From Neisseriaceae bacterium ESL0693 (GTDB taxonomy: Bacteria > Pseudomonadota > Gammaproteobacteria > Burkholderiales > Neisseriaceae), in contig JAQTIE010000007.1 in assembly GCA_029433475.1 (NCBI GenBank), positions 62,001-126,000 on the forward strand: DNA of 64,000 nucleotides, in the 5' to 3' direction. A program made the position numbers and the translations under genes. Of this stretch, positions 8,933 to 63,662 are shown piece after piece (position 1 is the stretch's first letter; every line of letters begins with the position of its first letter). The notes beneath the pieces are model-generated. The model ran no database searches and was not told where the DNA came from. It worked only from the letters and a program-made list of their open reading frames with translations.

Positions 8933-9966
8933 ATCAAACCAAACATAAATCGTTAACCAAACGACAAATACGAGATGGCGTTACTGTGAAACCCGGACGT
9001 CAGACATCTAAAAAAAATACTCATCGTACCCGTCAGGCAACAGATGAGAAACATCAGAGTGTTCAAACTCCTTCAGCTGCATTGCAGCCAGTTAAACAAC
9101 GCGTACCGCGTGCCAAAAAAATGGTGGTACGCAACCCGAATCAGGAAACACAACTACGGGCACGTACATTAAAAGAGCAACGATTTGATATAAGCCGGAT
9201 TGAACCTGTGCGGTTACAAAAAGCACTGGCTGCCTCAGGCGCAGGCTCCAGACGCGAAATGGAACAATGGATCAGCCAGGGGCTGGTTGTGGTAAATGGT
9301 AAAACAGCCAAACTGGGTGACCGGATTTTACCTACTGATGAAGTGAGTATCCGCGGGAAACAGATTCGTATCAAATGGCCTGATCGGCTGCCGCGCATTG
9401 TGTTGTATTACAAACAGGAAGGTGAAATTGTCAGCCGGGATGACCCGCAAGGACGGGTTAGTATTTTCGACCGGTTGCCACAAACCGTCAGCAGTCGTTG
9501 GGTAGCTATTGGCCGGTTGGATATTAATACTTGTGGTCTTTTAATCTTAACCACCTCGGGTGAATTGGTGAATCGCTTTGCCCATCCCAGCTTTGAAGTT
9601 GAACGCGAATATGCAGTCAGAGTATTGGGTGAACTGACGATAGAACAAAAACAGGCTTTGCTGGAGGGTGTTCAACTGGATGATGGTATCGCCAAGGCAC
9701 AGGCACTGAGCGAACAGGGTGGAGAAGGTGCCAATCGTTGGTACAATATTGTGGTTAAAGAAGGACGCAATCGGGAAGTACGGCGGTTATTTGAAAGCCA
9801 GGGACTGGTGGTGAGCCGTTTGGTGCGGGTGCGATTTGGTCCGTTGGCACTGCCAACACGTCTGAAACGTGGTCAGTATTATGAACTAAATGAGGTCGAA
9901 GTGGCCGGCATTATGCGCTGGGCAGGAATGAATACAGCCATTGCTCACAAAAATAAAAGACGTTAA
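8929..9966 (+). CDS. rluB: 23S rRNA pseudouridine synthase RluB
   Basis: The 345-residue protein has a long basic, lysine/arginine-rich N-terminal tail (about 85 residues), an S4 RNA-binding domain (LQKALAASGAGSRREMEQW), and the RsuA-family catalytic domain with the active-site Asp in GRLDINTCGLL and the C-terminal EGRNREVRRLFE. RluB isomerises U2605 of 23S rRNA in E. coli. It is translationally coupled to scpB and is followed by a hairpin terminator. RluF-like activity is an alternative, but the scpB neighbour favours RluB. Confidence 0.9.
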   Translation: MNQTKHKSLTKRQIRDGVTVKPGRQTSKKNTHRTRQATDEKHQSVQTPSAALQPVKQRVPRAKKMVVRNPNQETQLRARTLKEQRFDISRIEPVRLQKALAASGAGSRREMEQWISQGLVVVNGKTAKLGDRILPTDEVSIRGKQIRIKWPDRLPRIVLYYKQEGEIVSRDDPQGRVSIFDRLPQTVSSRWVAIGRLDINTCGLLILTTSGELVNRFAHPSFEVEREYAVRVLGELTIEQKQALLEGVQLDDGIAKAQALSEQGGEGANRWYNIVVKEGRNREVRRLFESQGLVVSRLVRVRFGPLALPTRLKRGQYYELNEVEVAGIMRWAGMNTAIAHKNKRR

Positions 9967-9981
9967 TTTAATATTTGATTC

Positions 9982-10035
9982 GCACACATGTGGAATAAAA
10001 AATATTCAACGTGTGTGCAGAAATTTTATTTTTTG
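9982..10035 (+). terminator. Terminator after rluB
   Basis: An imperfect 16-bp hairpin (arms 9982-9997 and 10003-10018, with one wobble and one mismatch) is followed by a T-rich tract to about 10035. It fits an intrinsic terminator for the scpB-rluB unit and separates it from the FNR-box region. Confidence 0.7.
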
Positions 10036-10461
10036 TTGTTTACACTCTAATGGTAAGATCATACGATCATGGTATAATAAAATGCCCTTATTATATTGGT
10101 ATCGCTGTTTATCTTTAATAAGATAACATATTTCAGAATATCAATAGTGTAGATGCTCATACATGGTATCTGCCGCAATTTAAAAATTAAAATACCCACC
10201 TATCCGATTTTATTGAATTAATGAGCGCAAATCAAAATTACATGGTAAAGCGATTAATTTAATAAAATGACATAAGAAAATTACATAAATTTGATATAGA
10301 TCAAACTTTTATCAAATAAATATGTAAAATAATCAAAAAAATTGTCACGAACGATACTTTAGTGCGATACTGTTGAGCTAAATAAAAACAGATTATTTAC
10401 CTACTATAAAACATGGTTTTAAGCCATGTTCATTATCCACACCATAGAAAATGGAGTCATA
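10036..10461 (+). other. Long intergenic region upstream of the PAS gene
   Basis: About 425 bases with no convincing protein gene. An extended -10 promoter element (TGGTATAAT, 10070-10078) without a good -35 lies near the left end, and the FNR-type box lies at 10291-10304. The stretch between them is long enough for a small RNA, but I see no terminator-like hairpin that would end one. The rest is very AT-rich. Confidence 0.45.
10291..10304 (+). promoter_or_regulatory. Perfect FNR-type binding site
   Basis: TTGATATAGATCAA matches the FNR/ANR consensus TTGAT-N4-ATCAA at every defined position. Its centre is 27-31 bp before candidate -10 hexamers (TAAAAT at 10325 or AATAAT at 10328), close to the -41.5 geometry of an FNR-activated promoter. 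The transcript would have a 5' leader of about 125 nt before the PAS gene. FNR is the oxygen-labile iron-sulphur regulator of anaerobic and microaerobic genes, so the downstream pair is probably induced when oxygen is low. Induction is inferred from the site only. Confidence 0.75.
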
Positions 10462-10953
10462 ATGATTGCACCAATGCCGGAACCAACAATTGAACATCGT
10501 ACTTTTGAATTAACACATTATGATGGTGTTAAACGCACTGTCTATTGTACTGAAGAGGAAAAGCAGTTTCCCGATGGTTGCCTGATCACATCGACGACTG
10601 ATTTGGAAGGTGTTATTACACACGTCAATGATGCATTTATCGAAATGAGTGGCTGGTCTAAAGATGAGTTGATGGGTGCAGAGCATTATATTCTTCGGCA
10701 TCCGGACATGCCCAAAGTAGCATATCAGGATTTATGGACAACGGTGCAGGAGGGGAAAAAATGGCACGGATATGTTAAAAATCTGCGTAAAAACGGTGGG
10801 TTTTACTGGGTATATGCAACGATTGTGCCCAGCTTTCGTGATGGAGAAATCAAAGGTTATACATCTGTTCGCAGAAAACCATCCAGAAGTAAAATTAATG
10901 AAATGGCTGCTTTATATGCTCAGATGATTCAGGCAGAACGGGGGGAAGCATGA
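10462..10953 (+). CDS. Stand-alone Aer-like PAS sensor protein
   Basis: The 163-residue protein is essentially one PAS domain closely resembling the N-terminal sensor of the aerotaxis receptor Aer: TTDLEGVITHVNDAFIEMSG (residues 45-64), LRHPDMPK (78-85) and VKNLRKNGGFYWVYA (105-119). In Aer this fold holds FAD and reads redox state. Here there is no membrane segment, HAMP, kinase or methyl-accepting domain. The start ATG at 10462 has GGAG seven bases upstream; a longer frame begins at 10426 without such a site. It is coupled by a 4-bp overlap to a PhnD-like gene, which is presumably its partner. Flavin binding is inferred. Confidence 0.8.
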   Translation: MIAPMPEPTIEHRTFELTHYDGVKRTVYCTEEEKQFPDGCLITSTTDLEGVITHVNDAFIEMSGWSKDELMGAEHYILRHPDMPKVAYQDLWTTVQEGKKWHGYVKNLRKNGGFYWVYATIVPSFRDGEIKGYTSVRRKPSRSKINEMAALYAQMIQAERGEA

Positions 10954-11702
10954 GTAAATTGAATTTTCTGATTGCGCCGGATTTTTCTCCTGAATATTTC
11001 ACTGGCTGGCATTTTCTCAGTACGCGGTTACAAAGAATGATCGATTTGCCGATTCATTTGATTTTACCGGCAAATGCCACTGAGGAGCGCCAGCAGATTG
11101 AGCGGGATAATGTAGATCTGATTTATACTAATCCGTTTGATACTACTGACTTGGTACGCAAATATGGCTATCTACCGGTAGTGATCCCCAAAAATCACTC
11201 TGATGAAACTGTGATTGCCAGAGGAGTGGAAAGTACAGTTAACAGCTTTGAAGACATTAAGCCTGGAATGACTGTCGCCTATACAGATAATCTGGACGTT
11301 AAACTGGTGAGTCTGCGATTACTGGAGGCCGTAGACATCAGTGAAAAAGACCTGACCTGGCTGCATGTGGATTCTTTTTCTTCTGTGGCACGCAGTCTGA
11401 TTCAAAGTAAGGCTGATATTGGTTTATTTATGAGTTCTGCTTATCATAATCTGACCAAGTTTACCCGCAGCCAATTGAATCTCTTAATTGAAAGTCAGAT
11501 TCATGATTTATCTCACGTTATCCTGATTCATCCACGTCAGGCAGAATTACGTGATCAATTACAGGATATTTTCAGCCGTATTCAGGAAGAACCGTCCGGG
11601 CAATTGATTTTAAATGATCTGGGTTTGCAGGATGGCTTTGAACCTTTAAGCAGAGACAAACTGGAGCTTCTAATTGACCTGATTGAAACATTACGTGATT
11701 GA
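10950..11702 (+). CDS. Cytoplasmic PhnD-like substrate-binding protein
   Basis: The 250-residue protein resembles the phosphonate/phosphite periplasmic-binding fold (PhnD family): an early beta strand LNFLIAPDFSPEYF, then NVDLIYTNPFDTTDLVRKYG, then AYTDNLDVKLVSLRLLEA and ADIGLFMSSAYHNL. It lacks a signal peptide, lipobox or transmembrane helix, and no permease or ATPase gene adjoins it. It is therefore unlikely to serve an ABC importer and may bind a ligand in the cytosol. It starts in the PAS gene with ATGA overlap behind a GGGGGA ribosome-binding site. Ligand and partner are unknown. Confidence 0.65.
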   Translation: MSKLNFLIAPDFSPEYFTGWHFLSTRLQRMIDLPIHLILPANATEERQQIERDNVDLIYTNPFDTTDLVRKYGYLPVVIPKNHSDETVIARGVESTVNSFEDIKPGMTVAYTDNLDVKLVSLRLLEAVDISEKDLTWLHVDSFSSVARSLIQSKADIGLFMSSAYHNLTKFTRSQLNLLIESQIHDLSHVILIHPRQAELRDQLQDIFSRIQEEPSGQLILNDLGLQDGFEPLSRDKLELLIDLIETLRD

Positions 11703-11731
11703 TGTATATTTGATATACTTCATTCCTGATT

Positions 11732-11778
11732 AAATCAACGCAGTATTCAAAATTGAATACTGCGTTGATTTTATTTTA
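11732..11778 (+). terminator. Strong terminator closing the PAS/PhnD operon
   Basis: A perfect 19-bp inverted repeat (arms 11732-11750 and 11753-11771) is followed by a T-rich tail. It isolates the two-gene operon from dusC and indicates that the pair is a self-contained transcription unit. Confidence 0.9.
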
Positions 11779-60849: not shown

Positions 60850-61668
60850 TTAATTTTTAGGTGGATTCTGGGGAATATACCAATATTGATTGATATTATG
60901 GGTGTCCATATACTGTTTAAATTCGTCAGACTGGTAAGCATCTTCTACTGCTTTAACCCACGGTTTATTTAAATTGGTGTTTTTAATCGCCAGAACAAGT
61001 TCAAATGCGGGCACAATGTGCTCATGCAATAAAGCCTGTTTGGGATCAAGTTTAGCGGCATAAGCACGACTCCCGGGGACAACGGCAAAATCAAAATCGG
61101 GTAACGTGCGTGGAATATTACTTGAATCTATCTCGGAAATCTTCAGCTGGTACGGATTGGTCGCAATATCGTTTTTGGATAAGGTACCATCATTATTTTT
61201 TGGTTTTAAAGTAATCCAGCCGGCTTTTTCCAATAAGCGATAAGCACGTGCGGCATTTGAAGGATCATTGGGAATGGCCACAGTACTGCCATTTTTTACT
61301 GCTTTCAAATCCGGATAATGTACCGAATATATAGCTGTTGGCACAGTAGGTAGATGAACTAGCGCTATGAGCTGACCACCCTTATTGCGATTAAATGCGT
61401 TCAGATAAGCAGTGTGCTGATCAACATTCAAATCAATCTGTCCTTCCTGTAAAGCAATATCTGCCAACATCAGATCAGAAAAATCGATCGCTTTTATTTT
61501 GTATCCTTGTTTTTCCAATATGGGCTTAACAGCATCAAGAAATAATTGACTGTATGGCCCGGGAGATGTGCCTATCGTAATAGCGTGTTCATCTTTAGTA
61601 TTCTGGTGGCAGGATACCAAGCCTATTGTGACTACTAAAACAAGTAAATATTTATACCAGGTCTTCAT
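60850..61668 (-). CDS. metQ: D-methionine-binding lipoprotein MetQ
   Basis: A 272-residue lipoprotein (lipobox LVSC) of the NlpA/MetQ fold: AITIGTSPGPYSQLFLDAV, DIALQEGQIDLNVDQHTAYL, GSTVAIPNDPSNAARAYRLLE. It brings methionine to the MetN-MetI transporter encoded upstream. It is the third MetQ homologue of the window and is more diverged from the tandem pair at 35-37 kb. It has its own promoter after a hairpin that follows metI. AAGGAG is just before the ATG. Confidence 0.88.
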   Translation of the reverse strand: MKTWYKYLLVLVVTIGLVSCHQNTKDEHAITIGTSPGPYSQLFLDAVKPILEKQGYKIKAIDFSDLMLADIALQEGQIDLNVDQHTAYLNAFNRNKGGQLIALVHLPTVPTAIYSVHYPDLKAVKNGSTVAIPNDPSNAARAYRLLEKAGWITLKPKNNDGTLSKNDIATNPYQLKISEIDSSNIPRTLPDFDFAVVPGSRAYAAKLDPKQALLHEHIVPAFELVLAIKNTNLNKPWVKAVEDAYQSDEFKQYMDTHNINQYWYIPQNPPKN

Positions 61669-61683
61669 TGTTTCTCCTTATGG

Positions 61684-61730
61684 ATTAACATGTTAATAAC
61701 GAATTATAACTCCCCTGATTTAAATAGCAA
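61684..61730 (-). promoter_or_regulatory. metQ promoter and palindrome
   Basis: On the minus strand TTGCTA (61730-61725) and TATAAT (61708-61703) are separated by 16 bp. Just downstream lies the perfect 14-bp palindrome ATTAACATGTTAAT (61684-61697), a plausible repressor operator. It does not resemble the MetJ box (AGACGTCT). Confidence 0.55.
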
Positions 61731-61803
61731 ATACCATGATCAGTAATTCATAAATAATTATTTTTAATACTTCTCAATATTGATGATATCGCAATGAATT
61801 ATA

Positions 61804-61831
61804 AAAAAACAGTCACTAATGACTGTTTTTT
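61804..61831 (-). terminator. Terminator between metI and metQ
   Basis: A 12-bp perfect hairpin (61804-61815 with 61820-61831) ending in T6 on the minus strand. It should stop most metNI transcripts before metQ, so that metQ relies on its own promoter. This would let the binding protein be made in different amounts from the permease. Confidence 0.8.
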
Positions 61832-61843
61832 ATTTAAATTTAA

Positions 61844-62512
61844 TTAACCTTTATGAGCTCTGGTAGCCAGCCAGTTACCGATACTTTGAATCAATTGCAC
61901 GATAATGATTAATGCAATCACGGTTAAAACCATGGCCACATTATCAAACCGTTGATAACCATAATTCAAGGCCAGATCTCCAATACCGCCGCCACCGACA
62001 GCACCCGCCATGGCAGTAGCACCCACCAATCCAATTGTGGCCGTAGTCAGGCTCAGAATAATGGAAGATTTAGCTTCCGGCAGAATAAAATAACGAATAA
62101 TCTGCCAGTTACTGGCACCCATGGCTTGGGCAGCCTCAATAATCCCATGCGATACGCTTAATAATGAATTTTCAATCAATCGGGCAATATAAGGCGCAAT
62201 ATATAAAACCAAAGGCACAATGGCTGCTCTGGTGCCAATGGAAGTACCTACCAATAGCCGGGTGAACGGAATAATTGCCACCAATAAAATAATAAATGGT
62301 AGGGAGCGAACAATATTAATGATGGGATTCAGGATTTTATATAACCAGGGTTTTTGCCAGAAACTGCCCGGACGAGTGATCAGCAATAATATGCCTAGCA
62401 ACAAACCAAGCAGTGAGCCGATGAAAAAAGACACACCCACCATGATCAAAGTCTGCTCTAAAGCCTGCCAGAATTGTTCAGTTGTTAACGAGGTATTAAA
62501 CCAATGATTCAT
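61844..62512 (-). CDS. metI: D-methionine ABC transporter permease MetI
   Basis: A 222-residue permease with five to six helices and the conserved EAA loop EAAQAMGASNWQIIRYFILPEAKSSII (in parts). It moves methionine across the inner membrane with MetN. It overlaps metN by 4 bp. Length is typical of MetI. Confidence 0.93.
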   Translation of the reverse strand: MNHWFNTSLTTEQFWQALEQTLIMVGVSFFIGSLLGLLLGILLLITRPGSFWQKPWLYKILNPIINIVRSLPFIILLVAIIPFTRLLVGTSIGTRAAIVPLVLYIAPYIARLIENSLLSVSHGIIEAAQAMGASNWQIIRYFILPEAKSSIILSLTTATIGLVGATAMAGAVGGGGIGDLALNYGYQRFDNVAMVLTVIALIIIVQLIQSIGNWLATRAHKG

Positions 62513-63522
62513 GCCACTTCCCTTTCAATACGCACGCCATTTTGCTTCAAAAATGACAACGCTTCTTCAATAGCATCATCTTCACCCGATATTTGTACGA
62601 ACATGCTGCCCAGCACAACGCCACTGATTTCACGCATATTGCCGAATAAAATATTAATCTTCACCAACTGTTTCAATATAAGCTCATTAATAATGGGTTC
62701 ACGAGCCGAGTCGCCGAGAAATTCCAGCCGATAGATATCATGTTGACACACCAAACTTTCTAAAATACGTTCCGGGATTTCAGCATTCAAAACGGTGCTG
62801 ACAAATTTCTTGGTAGTATTGTGTTTGGGAGTAGAAAAAATCTCCAATACAGAACCTTGTTCTATCACCTGTCCTTGTTCCATTACGGCTACTTTATTGC
62901 AAATGGAGCTGATCACTTCCATTTCATGGGTGACCAGTAATATGGTGATGTTTTGCTCATGATTAATCTGTTTCAGCAATTTTAATATAGACAATGTTGT
63001 CTGCGGGTCTAATGCCGATGTTGCCTCATCGCACAGCAAGATAGAAGGCTGGGTAATCAGCGCGCGCGCAATACCAACCCGCTGTTTTTGTCCACCTGAA
63101 AGCTGACCGGGATAGCTGTCTTTCTTGGCCTTTAAATCGATATAATCCAGCATGGCATCCACACGCTGTTCTATTTCAGTACGATCAACATTTTGCAAAA
63201 TCAGGGGCAGCGCAATGTTTTGCCCTACTGTTTTGGTTTCCAGCAAATTAAAATGCTGGAAAATCATGCCAATATTTTTTTTGTGTTTTCGCTGTTCTAC
63301 TGCACTTAACCGGTTAAGATTGATGCCATCAACCAATACTGTACCAGAGCTGGGTTTTTCCAATTGGTTGACCAGACGAATCAAAGTACTTTTACCCGCA
63401 CCACTCCAGCCGATCAGACCAAATATGTCACCTTGATCCACCGTCAGATTAATGTCTTTTAATGCATGTACCTGCTGTTTATTTTTAATATATGTTTTGT
63501 CTATATTCTCAAATTTAATCAT
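62509..63522 (-). CDS. metN: D-methionine ABC transporter ATPase MetN
   Basis: A 337-residue ATPase: Walker A GWSGAGKST, signature LSGGQKQRVGIARAL, Walker B ILLCDEATSALDP, switch VTHEMEV, and a C-terminal NIL domain (RLEFLGDSAREPIINELIL) that senses methionine in homologues. ATG at 63522 is preceded by GGGAAAACC; a longer frame begins with GTG at 63543. First gene of metN-metI(-metQ). Confidence 0.95.
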   Translation of the reverse strand: MIKFENIDKTYIKNKQQVHALKDINLTVDQGDIFGLIGWSGAGKSTLIRLVNQLEKPSSGTVLVDGINLNRLSAVEQRKHKKNIGMIFQHFNLLETKTVGQNIALPLILQNVDRTEIEQRVDAMLDYIDLKAKKDSYPGQLSGGQKQRVGIARALITQPSILLCDEATSALDPQTTLSILKLLKQINHEQNITILLVTHEMEVISSICNKVAVMEQGQVIEQGSVLEIFSTPKHNTTKKFVSTVLNAEIPERILESLVCQHDIYRLEFLGDSAREPIINELILKQLVKINILFGNMREISGVVLGSMFVQISGEDDAIEEALSFLKQNGVRIEREVA

Positions 63523-63662
63523 GGTTTTCCCTAATTGACCCACCCAATGACTTATAGCATGACTTTGAGTTTATCGAAAGCAGGCAGTAAAATAAACTAT
63601 TTTATACATTTTCGCTACAATATGGATACAAAAGTGCTGAAGCAGATCAAAATTACTACCTG

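Follow-up and report, generated by a model that had tools for sequence, protein, structure and literature searches.

The closest described systems are the Group 3 MglA/MglB switches. As presented in the main text of PMC4316618, their MglA shows a DAR motif at G5 and an unusual G4, in which the lysine is often missing, and it is accompanied by a receiver-like partner and one or two coupled roadblocks, with orphan roadblocks also present. The loci described here share this layout and differ from it in that PAS and PhnD-like genes follow the roadblock gene in a conserved order; the words "PAS", "phosphonate" and "periplasmic" are absent from the main text of that paper (PMC4316618). A likeness is also found to the actinobacterial conservons (CvnA-D), which the same text describes as operons where a sensor is encoded together with a roadblock protein and a Ras-like GTPase (PMC4316618). 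In conservons this sensor is a histidine kinase, whereas the sensor genes here encode a free PAS protein and a PhnD-like protein. In Snodgrassella communis, the main text of PMC11112851 reports a single mglA with two coupled mglB genes and, at a distance of about 10^6 bp, an orphan mglB-3. An mglB-3 allele encoding G78R (GGA to AGA) reached 100% in S. communis passaged in honeybees, changed the colony edges on soft agar and gave a competitive gain in the honeybee, not in the bumblebee (PMC11112851). In the parts of the literature covered, no input signal was found stated for beta/gammaproteobacterial (Group 3) MglA switches, and a conserved redox-type sensor plus a solute-binding protein beside a roadblock gene is a direct candidate for such an input. 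Within the openly licensed literature (CC0, CC BY and CC BY-SA papers), the combination of PAS, PhnD and roadblock was not found, nor was any paper on a PAS domain plus PhnD in Neisseria, on a PAS domain in Snodgrassella, or on roadblock, MglA and MglB proteins together in Acinetobacter; no name for the module appears in the titles or abstract starts of the related papers.

The window, that is the whole stretch of 64,000 nucleotides that was analysed, belongs to a genome of the genus Snodgrassella, a bee-gut bacterium. It shows a two-gene operon flanked by a pseudouridine-synthase-like and a dihydrouridine-synthase-like gene (both named by reading the sequence). An FNR-type palindrome with zero mismatches, TTGATATAGATCAA, is located at 10291-10304 (no strand assigned), and a possible -10 element, TAAAAT, recognised by inspection at 10325-10330 on the plus strand, is about 27 nt downstream of the centre of the palindrome. 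The first gene (10462-10953, plus strand) encodes an Aer-like PAS protein of 163 aa without an output domain and has an alternative upstream ATG at 10426. The second gene (10950-11702, plus strand) encodes a 250-aa PhnD-like (PF12974) protein of the solute-binding type without a signal peptide, and its start shares ATGA with the stop of the first gene, a 4-bp overlap. The coordinates, the overlap and the perfect FNR site given in the original prediction were all confirmed. Downstream, an intrinsic terminator at 11732-11771 (plus strand) shows an 18-bp stem, a 4-nt loop and a T-rich tail; a stable stem-loop had been predicted correctly, but with 19 pairs in its stem instead of the 18 counted. 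Its fold has -26.1 kcal/mol and a z of -9.9, and the single terminator found by a simple scan, against 1.1 expected in shuffles, is unremarkable alone. A phage origin of the pair was rejected after no phage match was found, a plasmid origin after a single plasmid record with 25% identity, and a defence gene reading after PADLOC gave no match. The window also contains, at 60850-63543 on the minus strand, genes read as a MetQ/MetI/MetN-type transporter.

A genome scan for the PhnD-like protein confirmed 245 loci, of which the best 80 by similarity (named loci) were examined together with 20 further loci (wider loci) chosen by hand from the searches of relatives' and class-wide genomes. Among the named loci (best 80 of 245), 60 show adjacent genes for an MglB-like roadblock protein, an Aer-like PAS protein and a PhnD-like protein, and this triad is found in Burkholderiales, Moraxellaceae, Xanthomonadaceae and some Neisseriaceae. 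Another 18 show the PAS and PhnD-like genes without an adjacent roadblock gene: 11 belong to Snodgrassella, six belong to rumen Neisseriaceae and the rest to Stenoxybacter. The pairing of the PAS and PhnD-like genes noticed in the window is therefore conserved in 78 of the 80 named loci, and the other two are cut by contig ends. The triad is present in 14 of the 20 wider loci, with a broken PhnD-like frame in one of them (L160); five contain a PhnD-like gene without PAS or roadblock genes (L157, L158, L159, L161 and L164), and in one (L156) the PhnD-like frame is broken and a roadblock gene is found nearby. The usual order is roadblock-PAS-PhnD-like, with two variants, PAS-roadblock-PhnD-like and the addition of an upstream PAS gene, and in the open frames of 103 loci no two of the three domains were found fused. 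The extra PAS gene precedes the roadblock gene in L178, L181 and L177 (PAS-roadblock-PAS-PhnD-like), and L177 also has two consecutive roadblock genes. A single PAS gene is followed by tandem PhnD-like genes in L077 (952-2535), from a rumen Neisseriaceae MAG, and in L162 (6796-8518), from G056. The window genome itself has a second set, a full roadblock/LC7-PAS-PhnD-like triad on contig C25, whose roadblock protein matches PF03259 over the cut-off (E 1e-15). The identity between the window and C25 copies is 56% for the PAS proteins and 32% for the PhnD-like proteins.

A gene encoding an MglA-type GTPase was found nearby on the same strand, by profile search, in 13 of the 20 wider loci and in 13 of the 80 named loci (best 80 of 245), 0.7-2.6 kb from the PhnD-like gene. 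These 13 named loci include eight of Moraxella, three of the Burkholderiales type and two of Psychrobacter. In 67 of the 80 named loci it was not found in the fetched stretch (of all 80 stretches, 27 are shorter than 16 kb); by group, the fetched stretches contain an MglA gene in none of the Neisseriaceae or Xanthomonadaceae loci, in three of the 21 Burkholderiales-type loci and in two of the 25 Psychrobacter loci. Clustering of the neighbours gave six more recurrent protein clusters, which correspond by profile comparison to four kinds: the GTPase, U208, a receiver-like protein (RR403/U367, 98.1%) and U246/U207 (97.6%). The usual gammaproteobacterial order is U246, receiver-like, MglA, U208, roadblock, PAS and PhnD-like, and the Moraxella order is roadblock, PAS, PhnD-like, U207, U367, MglA and U208. 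The assignment of U208 as a roadblock protein is unsupported (profile comparison, 0.6%), although a second coupled mglB is counted in PMC11112851, and the U208-like copy of the window genome shows a sub-threshold PF03259 match of 17 bits. The 12 co-located GTPases that were aligned keep the P-loop and TPGQ; DAR is present in 11 of them and the lysine of G4 is missing from 10, which is the Group 3 signature of a DAR G5 and an unusual G4; the roadblock/LC7 partner of such a GTPase is present in the triad and is not encoded beside the window pair. In L148 (G206), a highly divergent second PhnD-like gene (9484-10218) is located between the receiver-like and roadblock genes, in the spot occupied by MglA and U208 in other loci. 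L201 (4493-5448; G017, C125) contains a second MglA-like GTPase gene, separate from the Group 3 operon and immediately followed by a weak roadblock-like gene, and G017, G026, G032 and G035 show three MglA matches each.

The association was also found at the level of whole genomes. Across 369 genomes drawn from the class, with at most seven PhnD-like and nine MglA candidates scored per genome, MglA is present in 17 of the 19 carriers of the PhnD-like family versus 49 of the 350 other genomes, with a Fisher p of 4e-12 that overstates the association because the genomes are related and the line between carriers and others was drawn after the gap had been seen. The 19 carriers show a best E of 2e-56 or lower and the next genome shows 3e-20; G206 and G425 are the carriers without an MglA match. 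Generic PhnD matches below the gap show no excess, with MglA in seven of 43 genomes. Among 61 relatives, MglA is found in all 29 PhnD-like carriers versus four of the 32 non-carriers. Since 49 genomes of the class-wide draw contain MglA without the PhnD-like family, the module is accessory. The linkage of the genes of the module is well supported, and the stand-alone two-gene sensor was rejected on the linkage to the triad and to MglA. Of the original prediction, the linkage, the cytosolic placement, the conservation of the FNR site, the flavin-site residues and the lack of PhnE are supported, but the self-contained new signalling pair is not: the pair is instead two thirds of a roadblock triad tied to an MglA GTPase.

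In the window genome, MglA gave a single match and the roadblock family three, of which one falls below the cut-off. Its MglA locus, on contig C5, contains U246-like, receiver-like, MglA, U208-like and roadblock genes, and its only further roadblock over the cut-off is that of the C25 triad. In S. communis (G003), residue 78 of the triad roadblock, counted from MKYDF, is a glycine encoded by GGA, and Gly78 is invariant in the eight rows of the roadblock alignment. Because this residue and codon match the published G78R site (GGA to AGA), the triad roadblock is identified as MglB-3, and the "orphan" mglB-3 is concluded to be the gene that opens the triad. The protein has 120 aa by the start chosen here and 121 in the main text of PMC11112851, and in G006 the two roadblock loci are 1.46 Mb apart on a 2.53-Mb contig. 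PMC11112851 treats mglB-3 as an orphan, whereas here it heads a triad with PAS and PhnD-like genes; the main text of that paper contains neither "PAS" as a whole word nor "phosphonate". A gene under selection while Snodgrassella adapted to a new bee host can thereby be assigned two partners and may be connected with oxygen, in a gut symbiont amenable to experiments.

The best PDB match of the PAS family profile is the PAS domain of Aer (8dik, E 4e-46), in agreement with the Aer-type PAS of the original prediction. The FAD contacts reported in the main text of PMC9668731 for Aer, H53, R57, W70, N85 and R115, map at a constant offset to H75, R79, W92, N107 and R137 of the window protein, and M69, also a contact, corresponds to L91; T27, named in the same text, falls outside the constant offset and was left out of the scoring (PMC9668731). 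Among 111 homologue sequences (109 distinct), the equivalents of W70, N85 and R115 are retained in all 111, that of R57 in 110 and that of H53 in 103, with Gln in the other eight, and the M69 position shows Leu in 98 and Met in 13. E. coli Aer (8dik; PMC9668731) thus shares with the window protein the similarity over the whole length of the PAS domain and the FAD-contact residues, but Aer has HAMP, membrane and MCP parts that the window protein does not have. The 163-aa protein shows matches over the cut-off to PAS only, with neither HAMP nor an MCP signalling domain among them, and the predicted absence of an output domain holds. No MCP domain match was found in the genome, whereas seven of 14 control genomes were positive, which makes this an Aer-type sensor without an input to chemoreceptors.

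The second gene matches PF12974 (Phosphonate-bd) with an E of 5e-31, and the PhnD-like identity had been assigned correctly. AioX and ArrX have a role in arsenic-responsive signalling, not in transport; these two proteins and PtxB are periplasmic, and AioX acts with two-component partners. By sequence, AioX, ArrX and PtxB (6esk, 6x8w, 5o2j) are the nearest solved relatives of the window protein, but they are periplasmic, whereas members of the PhnD-like family have no leader and are linked to a GTPase module. In 110 of 115 homologues the motif of the mature domain lies 2-16 residues past the last Met without any hydrophobic stretch, as expected from the predicted lack of a signal peptide and cytosolic placement, and the other five, without the motif as written, have N-termini that are leaderless by reading. 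The transporter partner said to be missing near the operon was searched for in the whole genome, and no PhnE permease over the cut-off was found (best match 72.5 bits versus 216.7); of five weak matches, the strongest is the MetI-like permease of the window's own MetQ/MetI/MetN-type gene set (60850-63543), the genes being named by reading. The anion-binding loop of AioX, DSNSG, aligns with TDNxDVKL of the PhnD-like family, with Asp116 conserved in 96%, and W20, N61, E86, S182 and H189 are 99-100% conserved across the 115 homologues. Since the aligned stretch and these residues are so strongly conserved, the pocket is probably kept, with an acidic residue near the expected position of a phosphonate-type anion.

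The FNR site before the pair is the only one with zero mismatches among the 12 matches with at most one mismatch in the 64 kb, versus a shuffle mean of 6.1 such matches. The whole genome contains 21 perfect palindromes and none for the pattern read backwards. It encodes one HTH_Crp_2 regulator with clustered N-terminal cysteines, an Fnr-like protein whose best NCBIfam match is Fnr (NF008365) with 226.3 bits, 1.7 under the cut-off of 228. The two elements of an FNR-regulated promoter, TTGATNNNNATCAA and an Fnr protein in the genome, are therefore present, the latter with its model just under the cut-off. The site had been said to lie at the right distance from the operon, and this is plausible: by inspection, the spacing of TAAAAT would suit a class-II site. 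A promoter consensus scan omits this element and gives 10342-10371, with 12 promoter-like sites versus 8.1 expected; for a site position of about -41.5 relative to the start of transcription, inspection and scan point to different -10 elements. Conservation was scanned over the 200 bases upstream of the PAS gene, with dinucleotide shuffles as control. A site with at most one mismatch is conserved in 10 of the 12 Snodgrassella pair loci (shuffle mean 0.61, maximum 3), which share ancestry that is uncontrolled in these counts; it is perfect in seven, the remaining two show two-mismatch sites only, and across the loci the half-sites are constant and the spacer bases variable. Outside the genus, the site is found in seven of 20 Burkholderiales-type roadblock upstream regions (shuffle mean 0.25), three of seven in Moraxella (0.23) and one of five in Xanthomonadaceae (0.00), and with at most one mismatch in none of 25 Psychrobacter triad upstream regions (0.55). 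Among the Snodgrassella triad copies, one of nine shows a site with at most one mismatch, namely that of the window's own genome. From these sites, the window copy is probably under oxygen control through FNR.

In a tree of the PhnD-like proteins, built by a quick method with SH-aLRT support and containing several long branches, the window protein clusters with the other Snodgrassella pair proteins (99) and then with Stenoxybacter and G015 (95), and the triad copies of Snodgrassella make up a clade of their own together with a second G015 sequence (99). Because the two copies fall in separate clades, each with a G015 sequence, both are probably older than the genus Snodgrassella. The pair is present in all 14 Snodgrassella genomes and the PhnD-like gene of the triad in nine of the 14. 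G001, G012 and G024 (Stenoxybacter) carry a roadblock gene that has no adjacent PAS or PhnD-like gene, with the pair located elsewhere, although the contig of G001 ends 1.4 kb downstream; G005 contains the pair, and a third roadblock was not found in it. Comparisons among the other Snodgrassella, with the window copy left out, gave a dN/dS of 0.02-0.06 for the PAS gene and 0.04-0.16 for the PhnD-like gene (six comparisons each, some with dS over 0.9), and both genes evolve under purifying selection within the genus.

Taken alone, the membership of the pair in the roadblock-PAS-PhnD-like module is likely. With moderate confidence, the pair is taken to be a second copy, under FNR control, of the sensory part of this module, serving a Group 3 MglA switch, on the basis of the linkage, the co-occurrence in genomes, the flavin-site residues, the leaderless proteins, the conserved FNR site and the purifying selection. 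The PAS protein would bind FAD and report the respiratory or redox state, and the PhnD-like protein would bind a small solute or retain its fold as a protein-binding clamp. Both would act through the roadblock MglB-3, encoded in the other triad of the genome, and this route would reach the single MglA and hence type IV pilus motility and attachment. FNR would raise the window copy at low oxygen and shift the balance between the two sensor sets. A direct gating of MglA by the module is a tentative suggestion from gene context. Equally tentative is the wider picture, in which a cytosolic receptor formed by a flavin-redox PAS protein and a solute-binding protein would gate a Ras-like GTPase via a roadblock protein, with the oxygen-induced Snodgrassella copy tuning pili and host attachment. 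If true, this would be a ligand- and respiration-controlled GTPase input, unlike the chemosensory (Frz) or histidine-kinase (conservon) inputs, and widespread in beta/gammaproteobacteria.

Other readings place the output or the partners of the pair elsewhere. The pair could belong to the MglA module with transcription as its output, through the receiver-like/winged-helix protein beside MglA, and affect pili indirectly. The receiver-like gene is directly upstream of mglA in the window genome (L168), and a receiver fold plus a winged helix is predicted for a conserved Group 3 neighbour in the main text of PMC4316618, but the phenotype published for the mglB-3 allele is a change in colony edge (motility) and colonisation (PMC11112851), and this reading is rather unlikely. 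Less likely still is that the FNR-controlled pair has split off as an independent oxygen or metabolite sensor with a partner outside MglB/MglA. The missing adjacent roadblock in Snodgrassella, Stenoxybacter and rumen Neisseriaceae, the pair kept in G005 where no third roadblock was found, and the identity of only 32% between the PhnD-like proteins of the window and of the triad agree with such a split; against it, MglA accompanies all 29 carriers among the relatives, and G001, G012 and G024 (Stenoxybacter) keep the roadblock gene and the pair apart, as if separated with both retained. The missing roadblock would also be expected if the pair were a decaying leftover of a lost triad, which is very improbable given its presence in every Snodgrassella genome (the PhnD-like gene of the triad being in nine of 14), the dN/dS of 0.02-0.16 in other members of the genus and the FNR site kept in 10 of 12 loci. 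The good score against PF12974, a family described as periplasmic phosphonate-binding, would suit an exported PhnD-like protein partnered with an ABC transporter encoded elsewhere; with no leader in 110 of 115 homologues or, by reading, in the other five, no PhnE over the cut-off, the MetI-like permease of a MetQ/MetI/MetN-type gene set as the best weak match, and TDNxD in the place of the AioX DSNSG, export is likewise scarcely credible. The pair as an FNR-controlled sensory copy of the module serving MglA remains the preferred reading.

Two further loci were observed in these searches. L101, titled Streptomyces cinereus JCM 3040 (BMPS01000005), shows neighbours common to the Moraxella loci, and its PhnD-like protein groups with Moraxellaceae in the tree; this record is probably a contaminant or a mislabelled assembly. 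In L204 (2663-6744), from a Sphaerotilus plasmid, the PhnD-like gene overlaps a gene encoding a SpoIIE-type phosphatase, possibly another signalling use of PhnD-type domains.
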